DNA of 32,598 nucleotides. Origin: Nitrospina sp. Its GTDB lineage: Bacteria > Nitrospinota > Nitrospinia > Nitrospinales > VA-1. Both the position numbers and the translations under genes were made by a program. The first letter of the stretch is position 1. Every line of letters begins with the position of its first letter. The notes under the pieces are model-generated. The model made no database searches, had not been told where the DNA came from, and worked only from the letters and a program-made list of their open reading frames with translations. Of this stretch, positions 8,085-8,334 are shown one piece after another. The stretch spans positions 1-32,598 of the forward strand of contig JABIXH010000044.1 of the NCBI GenBank assembly GCA_018664975.1, written 5' to 3'.

Positions 8085-8113
8085 TTGAAATTGCCCATTG
8101 GGTGTGGTATAGT
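8085..8113 (+). promoter_or_regulatory. Sigma70-type promoter for the glnB leader
   Basis: TTGAAA (8085-8090), a 17-base spacer, and TATAGT (8108-8113) preceded by TG plus one base, an extended -10. Both boxes match consensus at five of six positions with ideal spacing, the best promoter I find in the window. Transcription would start near 8120, giving a leader of about 215 bases before glnB. Confidence 0.6.
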
Positions 8114-8188
8114 TCGCCGACATCATAAACCCCTTTTATTCTATAAGATTATTGGCGGAGCCTGCCAAACAAGTTTGGAAATACTTAT

Positions 8189-8204
8189 TGGCATGAATAT
8201 TGAA
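8189..8204 (+). promoter_or_regulatory. Possible sigma54 (RpoN) -24/-12 site upstream of glnB
   Basis: TGGCATGAATATTGAA matches the sigma54 consensus TGGCACG-N4-TTGCW at 10 of the 12 defined positions, with the correct 10 bases between the GG and the -12 dinucleotide. The weak point is GA instead of the nearly invariant GC at -12. RpoN control of glnB is common, which makes it worth listing. The -12 mismatch keeps confidence low. Confidence 0.25.
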
Positions 8205-8218
8205 ATAACATGAAGTAA

Positions 8219-8308
8219 CCGGTTTGAGGTGGGCACGAAAGAGAGCCATTATAGTTTGGCAAAATTTGCGACCGTAAAGGCAAATGTCCACCAGTCCGGA
8301 TCTTTTTT
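8219..8308 (+). ncRNA. Structured glnB leader: candidate regulatory RNA or attenuator
   Basis: This stretch can fold into a closed multi-branch RNA. GGTGGGCA (8228-8235) pairs with TGTCCACC (8285-8292), 8 pairs with one G-U. Inside are two hairpins: GCCA/TGGC (8245-8248 with 8257-8260) and TTTGC/GCAAA (8265-8269 with 8280-8284). An outer CCGG/CCGG helix (8219-8222 with 8296-8299) closes it, and T6 follows at 8303-8308, as after an intrinsic terminator. The glnB ATG is only 26 bases farther on, with AGAGGAAA before it. The arrangement suits a riboswitch-like attenuator or a small RNA made from the promoter at 8085. I recognise no known riboswitch class. The folding is by eye. Confidence 0.4.
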
Positions 8309-8334
8309 GAACATACAGGCAAGAGGAAAACAAT

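Follow-up and report, generated by a model that had tools for sequence, protein, structure and literature searches.

Nitrospinota are important marine nitrite oxidisers. The window analysed here, a 32,598-nucleotide stretch of Nitrospina sp. DNA (contig C2 of genome G000, a genome 78% complete), places glnB, the gene for PII, behind a long leader that can fold. The locus raises the question of where transcription of glnB begins and what the folded RNA ahead of the gene might do. Most likely the leader is a cis-regulatory 5′ UTR, specific to its lineage, of a glnB-glnA unit with sigma-70 and sigma-54 promoters. For the proposal as a whole, in which tandem promoters are combined with a cis-acting folded element that would regulate glnB output after initiation, we put the odds at about even (probability roughly 0.5).

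The glnB locus and the leaders compared

The gene order is lpxB (6223-7395), a DUF374 protein (7376-8020), glnB, glnA and a GlnE-type adenylyltransferase (10342-13524). Among the named near matches of the window GlnB is an uncultured Nitrospina protein at 87% identity.

8321-8330, forward strand: Shine-Dalgarno (SD) region AAGAGGAAAA of glnB, read from the sequence
8335-8673, forward strand: glnB (PII; Pfam PF00543, 8e-34)
8839-10251, forward strand: glnA (glutamine synthetase; Pfam PF00120/PF03951)

Between the two genes lies a terminator-like hairpin of the classical type with T7 (8756-8788), some 50 bases ahead of glnA. Most of 19 relatives show a hairpin at this position, with several two-sided changes, so that read-through may account for part of glnA expression. 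Upstream of glnA, the stretch TTTAACTATTTTTTGCAGGAGA (8815-8832) shows striking conservation in the same 19 relatives, beyond the needs of a ribosome-binding site alone.

The comparison set comprised 19 glnB leaders, 12 from the window's genus (g1) and 7 from g6, a genus of the same family. Left out of it were L021 (variant sigma-54 motif), L029 (no such motif), and L155 and L173, which are cut by contig ends; L010 was additionally left out of an 11-leader g1 set and of the covariance model built from that set, and L157 of a 6-leader set. For the helix search the 19 leaders were aligned by sequence alone, and covariation in 104 candidate helices was tested against a tree-based null.

Two predicted promoters upstream of glnB

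Four features lie between the DUF374 gene and the folded element.

8057-8073, no strand assigned: NtrC-like 17-bp palindrome TGCCCTAATTTGGGGCA; the predicted sigma-54 start follows 158 bases downstream
8085-8113, forward strand: sigma-70-type promoter TTGAAA-17-TATAGT with an extended -10, from the promoter scan
8188-8204, forward strand: sigma-54-type promoter TTGGCATGAATATTGAA, with GG at -25/-24 and A instead of the consensus C at -12
8215, forward strand: predicted sigma-54 transcription start, placed by the -12/-24 spacing

The upstream promoter had been called in an earlier reading made from the sequence alone (the sequence-only reading), and the call is borne out: the promoter, with TG before its -10 hexamer, recurs with the same 17-bp spacer in 19/19 glnB leaders (12 g1, 7 g6). 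The evidence is this conservation and not the match to consensus, since the promoter scan returned 7 promoter-like sites against 5.9 expected.

The sequence-only reading had further seen no other promoter before glnB, and had made the gene dependent on read-through from the sigma-70 start. The first of these statements is true only for the stretch after 8308, and the second is not supported, as the sigma-54-type promoter at 8188-8204 lies at least 98 bases upstream of the T run. The predicted sigma-54 transcript would still include the folded element, which, with a start at 8215, would open a leader of 120 bases. A loose sigma-54 pattern has 1 match in the window against 0.14 expected, and a sigma-54 motif precedes 28 of 30 glnB loci taken without selection (L021 carries a variant, L029 has none and L022 was confirmed). 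TGGCAYG-N4-TTG occurs at fixed spacing in all 19 leaders, a count that is partly selection because the leaders were picked via this motif, but the -12 position is A or T throughout. As the pattern is not specific by itself in the genome (6 matches versus 4 for the reversed pattern) and -12 is off consensus, the argument for this promoter is built on fixed position and conservation.

The matching sigma factor gene, rpoN, was found in 14 of the 16 g1 genomes (1.2e-59 in G000), and NtrC-family proteins are present, the best of them scoring 511.5 bits, below the ntrC model cut-off of 558.6. The palindrome at 8057-8073 was called from the consensus of NtrC sites; the pattern, picked after the site was seen, has 2 matches with at most one mismatch against 0.19 expected. 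The best-scoring NtrC-like 17-mer falls at -155 to -158 in 12/12 g1 leaders, with 8-12 of 14 consensus letters, and in 0/7 g6 leaders.

The distance from the sigma-70 -10 to the sigma-54 GG (8113-8190 in the window) is held at 73-76 bp in 19/19 leaders from the two genera, and this constancy suggests functional coupling of the two promoters. As predictions from DNA sequence, both promoters are supported by the comparison.

A covarying helix in the leader

The helices that bear on the fold of the leader are the following.

8219-8222, forward strand: 5′ strand of outer helix P1, CCGG (fold and g1 pairing)
8249-8256, forward strand: 5′ strand of helix B, UUAUAGUU (covariation)
8264-8285, forward strand: second inner hairpin of the sequence-only reading, AUUUGC/GCAAAU (some covariation, within g1 only)
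8270-8277, forward strand: 3′ strand of helix B, GACCGUAA (covariation; one A-C mismatch in G000)
8296-8299, forward strand: 3′ strand of outer helix P1, CCGG (fold and g1 pairing)

The multi-branch fold drawn in the sequence-only reading exists in the window, with CCGG/CCGG, a 7-pair closing stem and two inner hairpins, but its inner helices are mostly not conserved. The MFE fold of 8219-8314 has an energy of -27.9 kcal/mol (z -2.29; 6 of 200 shuffles as good), and the entire leader (8114-8330) is not unusual in stability (z -1.37; 18 of 200 shuffles as good). Across the 11 g1 leaders P1 is paired in 95.5% of cells with one two-sided change, and against the tree-based null within g1 it reaches p 0.001 for pairing and p 0.08 for covariation; over all 19 leaders it fails that null (p 0.23). 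P1 is built from different sequences in g1 and g6, with zero two-sided changes in g6.

The closing stem is 76% paired in the 11 g1 leaders with zero two-sided changes, and GGUGGGC/GUCCACC was rejected as a conserved helix (0.75 paired versus 0.59 under the null, p 0.107). Pairing in the 11 g1 leaders is 75% and 71% for the two inner hairpins, which make up the inner-segment MFE only in the window's own genome (1/19 leaders). The first was rejected, with a covariation p of 0.154 in g1. The covariation of the second was reached by 0/1000 simulations in g1 and is weaker over all 19 leaders (p 0.012). A g1-only scan of 1370 candidate helices places both helix B and the second hairpin near the top; rivals sharing one strand also score there, so that the second hairpin is not secure.

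Helix B, which connects two loops drawn as unpaired in the earlier fold, stands out among the 104 candidates (alignment columns 34-40 with 56-62; paired 0.89 versus 0.62 under the null). Its pairing and covariation were reached by 0/400 and 0/1000 simulations of the tree-based null, and a counting test gave 85.4% of cells paired versus 68.8% after shuffling and 27 two-sided cells versus 11.3 (0/500). The sequences forming it differ by genus (UUAUGGC/GCCAUAA versus AUCAGGU/ACCUGAU) and vary within g1 (GGC/GCC, GGU/ACC and GAC/GUC). The sequence-only reading had looked to compensatory changes in relatives as the check on its fold; such changes were found, but in a helix absent from its drawing. 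A conserved RNA helix, predicted from aligned leaders, is supported by the comparison. The flanks of helix B, GAAUC and GGnAAA-GUCGUC, are conserved in both genera, and its loop is not conserved between g1 and g6.

In folds of the individual leaders helix B is contained in the inner-segment MFE of 13 of the 19 (read by eye); its mean pair probability is just 0.15 in the window and near zero in 5 other leaders. Its 3′ strand sits in the loop of the second hairpin, and the two helices would therefore be alternatives or form a pseudoknot. A kissing-loop model holding all helices at once was rejected because a linker of 3 bases would seem too short for it.

Distribution of the leader element

The covariance model, whose training set of g1 leaders includes the window's own sequence, delimits the element as follows.

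8215-8334, forward strand: glnB leader element per the covariance model, 121.7 bits in G000 (training sequence)

The model was applied to 46 genomes from the family (16 g1, 9 g6 and 21 others). It matches the glnB leader in 13 of the 16 g1 genomes, comprising the 11 on which it was trained and the held-out G007 (4.3e-8) and G014 (1.9e-5); of the three missed, G005 has a glnB without the element, and no glnB was found in G001 and G013. The glnB leader is the best match in 7 of the 9 g6 genomes (E 9.3e-5 to 0.13, three of the seven at E of at least 0.05), while in the remaining two the best matches lie elsewhere (G065; 0.05 and 0.08) or neither a match nor a glnB was found (G066). One genome alone among the other 21 has matches, at E 0.78 and 0.97, and in a search of the wider order, with 64 genomes from 16 genera, no match at E up to 0.1 lay outside g1 and g6. 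A second copy of the element in g1 or g6 was not convincingly found, other matches there being weak (0.05-0.72). By this model, the element is restricted to the glnB leaders of two genera.

The length of the leader core is held (79-92 bases) as the sequence drifts, and conservation of the leader sequence is no higher than that of neighbouring spacers. The earlier claim of a structured leader before glnB is upheld as that of a real and conserved one, which the model recovers in held-out congeners and in g6. In other genera of the family 130 to 220 bases separate the sigma-54 motif from glnB, and these leaders share no recognisable common fold; consensus folds of 5, 3 and 2 of them gave little. 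Second glnB-like copies occur in G005 and G015 (L029, L031 and L032); upstream of L031 and L032 a sigma-54-type motif is visible, and their leaders are shorter and without the folded element.

How the leader may act

The proposed sequence of events is as follows. The sigma-70 promoter would provide basal transcription of glnB-glnA, and the sigma-54 promoter would start transcription near 8215 under nitrogen limitation, probably via an NtrC-type activator. Both transcripts would carry the folded element of about 90 bases (P1 and helix B), whose end lies roughly 25 bases ahead of the ribosome-binding site of glnB. Once transcription has started, the element would tune glnB output, acting most probably on the initiation of translation or on the stability of the mRNA; in g1 the U-run may add partial termination.

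The weight given to termination depends on the tract that follows P1.

8303-8308, forward strand: T6 tract (4-6 T in 12/12 g1 leaders; 1-2 T in 6/7 g6 leaders)

The terminator-like end described in the sequence-only reading is present in the window, where T6 precedes the glnB start at 8335, but a T run is absent from 6 of the 7 g6 leaders; in the seventh, a divergent leader, T6 stands elsewhere. A transcription attenuator, in which P1 and the U-run would form a terminator and a ligand or protein, by setting its folding, would determine whether transcription continues into glnB, draws on the T run and near-complete P1 pairing of g1 and on the divergent congener G014, where CCGAUU/AAUCGG is followed by T8. 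We nonetheless consider it unlikely: the six g6 leaders lacking the T run retain the rest of the element, and P1 in the window has only 4 pairs, encloses about 73 bases and is separated from T6 by 3 bases. The terminator scan (loop limit 3-8 bases) did not call the T6 element and did call the glnB-glnA candidate at 8756-8788.

Pairing of the SD region would offer a route to translational control. In the consensus folds of both genera this region pairs with the bases that directly follow P1, a pairing second in rank among the distinct helices of the 19-leader covariation scan. The last 48 bases of the leader show no unusual stability (z about -0.4 to 1.2 in 19/20 sequences); with the covariation signal coming largely from the split between the two genera, SD sequestration was rejected as an established fact. 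An AGCC/GGCU pairing beside the SD region was set aside as inconsistent across sequences (by eye), and a leader peptide because the leaders differ in length by numbers not divisible by three. The T run is not conserved and SD pairing is weak; translation or mRNA stability would more probably be the step of action than termination.

Other readings of the element

That a regulatory protein, for instance an RNA-binding antiterminator of the ANTAR type, or a small RNA acting in trans binds the element is doubtful. Recognition by a protein would fit helix B, a hairpin whose flanks are conserved while its loop drifts. ANTAR targets carry two hairpins with conserved hexaloops; the two hexaloops are not visible here, where a single covarying hairpin, its loop variable in length and sequence, appears in the consensus structures, and a search of the 78%-complete G000 for ANTAR domains, run without a positive control, gave 0 matches. 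Binding of nitrogen-gene leaders by NasT-type ANTAR proteins is known (PMC12316311).

The overlap of helix B and the second hairpin could also be read as a new two-state RNA switch, in which the two would interchange, or form a pseudoknot, and so set the PII level by a nitrogen signal; this we regard as improbable. A metabolite riboswitch for glutamine, 2-oxoglutarate or another nitrogen signal is more improbable still. Its position before a nitrogen-signalling gene and the flanks conserved in both genera would suit such a switch, but no Rfam family reaches its gathering score in the window (the best sub-threshold match, Clostridium-PBP, scores 23.4 bits where 94.4 are needed), in agreement with the sequence-only reading, which had recognised no known class. 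The variable hairpin loop speaks against it as well. Most known riboswitch classes recur at several genes, so that a location solely before glnB, in 2 of the 16 genera searched, counts against this one. The metabolite-sensing attenuator suggested earlier is unsupported, given the same loop and location and the T run missing from g6. A small RNA was also suggested earlier. In the form of a short sigma-54-dependent transcript that stops at 8308 it is the least credible reading, as the predicted start and T6 would yield a 94-base RNA in g1 but most g6 leaders lack the T run, and with it the required 3′ end, and the element always stands directly before glnB.

Neither a switch responding to a metabolite nor a terminator of the ordinary kind has good evidence in its favour. 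If, as the tandem-promoter proposal has it, PII is controlled by the leader once transcription is under way, nitrogen signalling in Nitrospinota would gain an extra RNA layer. The outcome is a testable element with an alignment-based model and a corrected structure.

Comparison with known systems

A literature search found no description of such a glnB leader in Nitrospinota. Glutamine riboswitches (the glnA RNA and Downstream-peptide families) are likewise structured RNAs before nitrogen-assimilation genes; cmscan gave no match to them, at gathering score or at E up to 5. The leader terminators of NasT/ANTAR systems also place leader hairpins and a terminator-like T tract in nitrogen genes, but the dual hexaloop is absent here and the T tract is not conserved.

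The closest parallels lie in promoter arrangement. Escherichia coli glnALG is transcribed from tandem promoters, glnAp1 (sigma-70) and glnAp2 (sigma-54), with NtrC sites (PMC3870243). The upstream sigma-70 and downstream sigma-54 order is shared by the promoters predicted here, and an NtrC-like palindrome lies further upstream; the gene in the present case is glnB, its control by NtrC would be presumptive, and the available portion of that account describes no such folded leader (PMC3870243). In Geobacter sulfurreducens the RpoN promoter of glnB-glnA was shown by primer extension (PMC2725144). The description, in the portion available, mentions no structured leader element (PMC2725144). The gene order is shared by the two systems, as is a sigma-54 promoter, predicted here, upstream of glnB; the -12 position departs from consensus in the leaders studied here.
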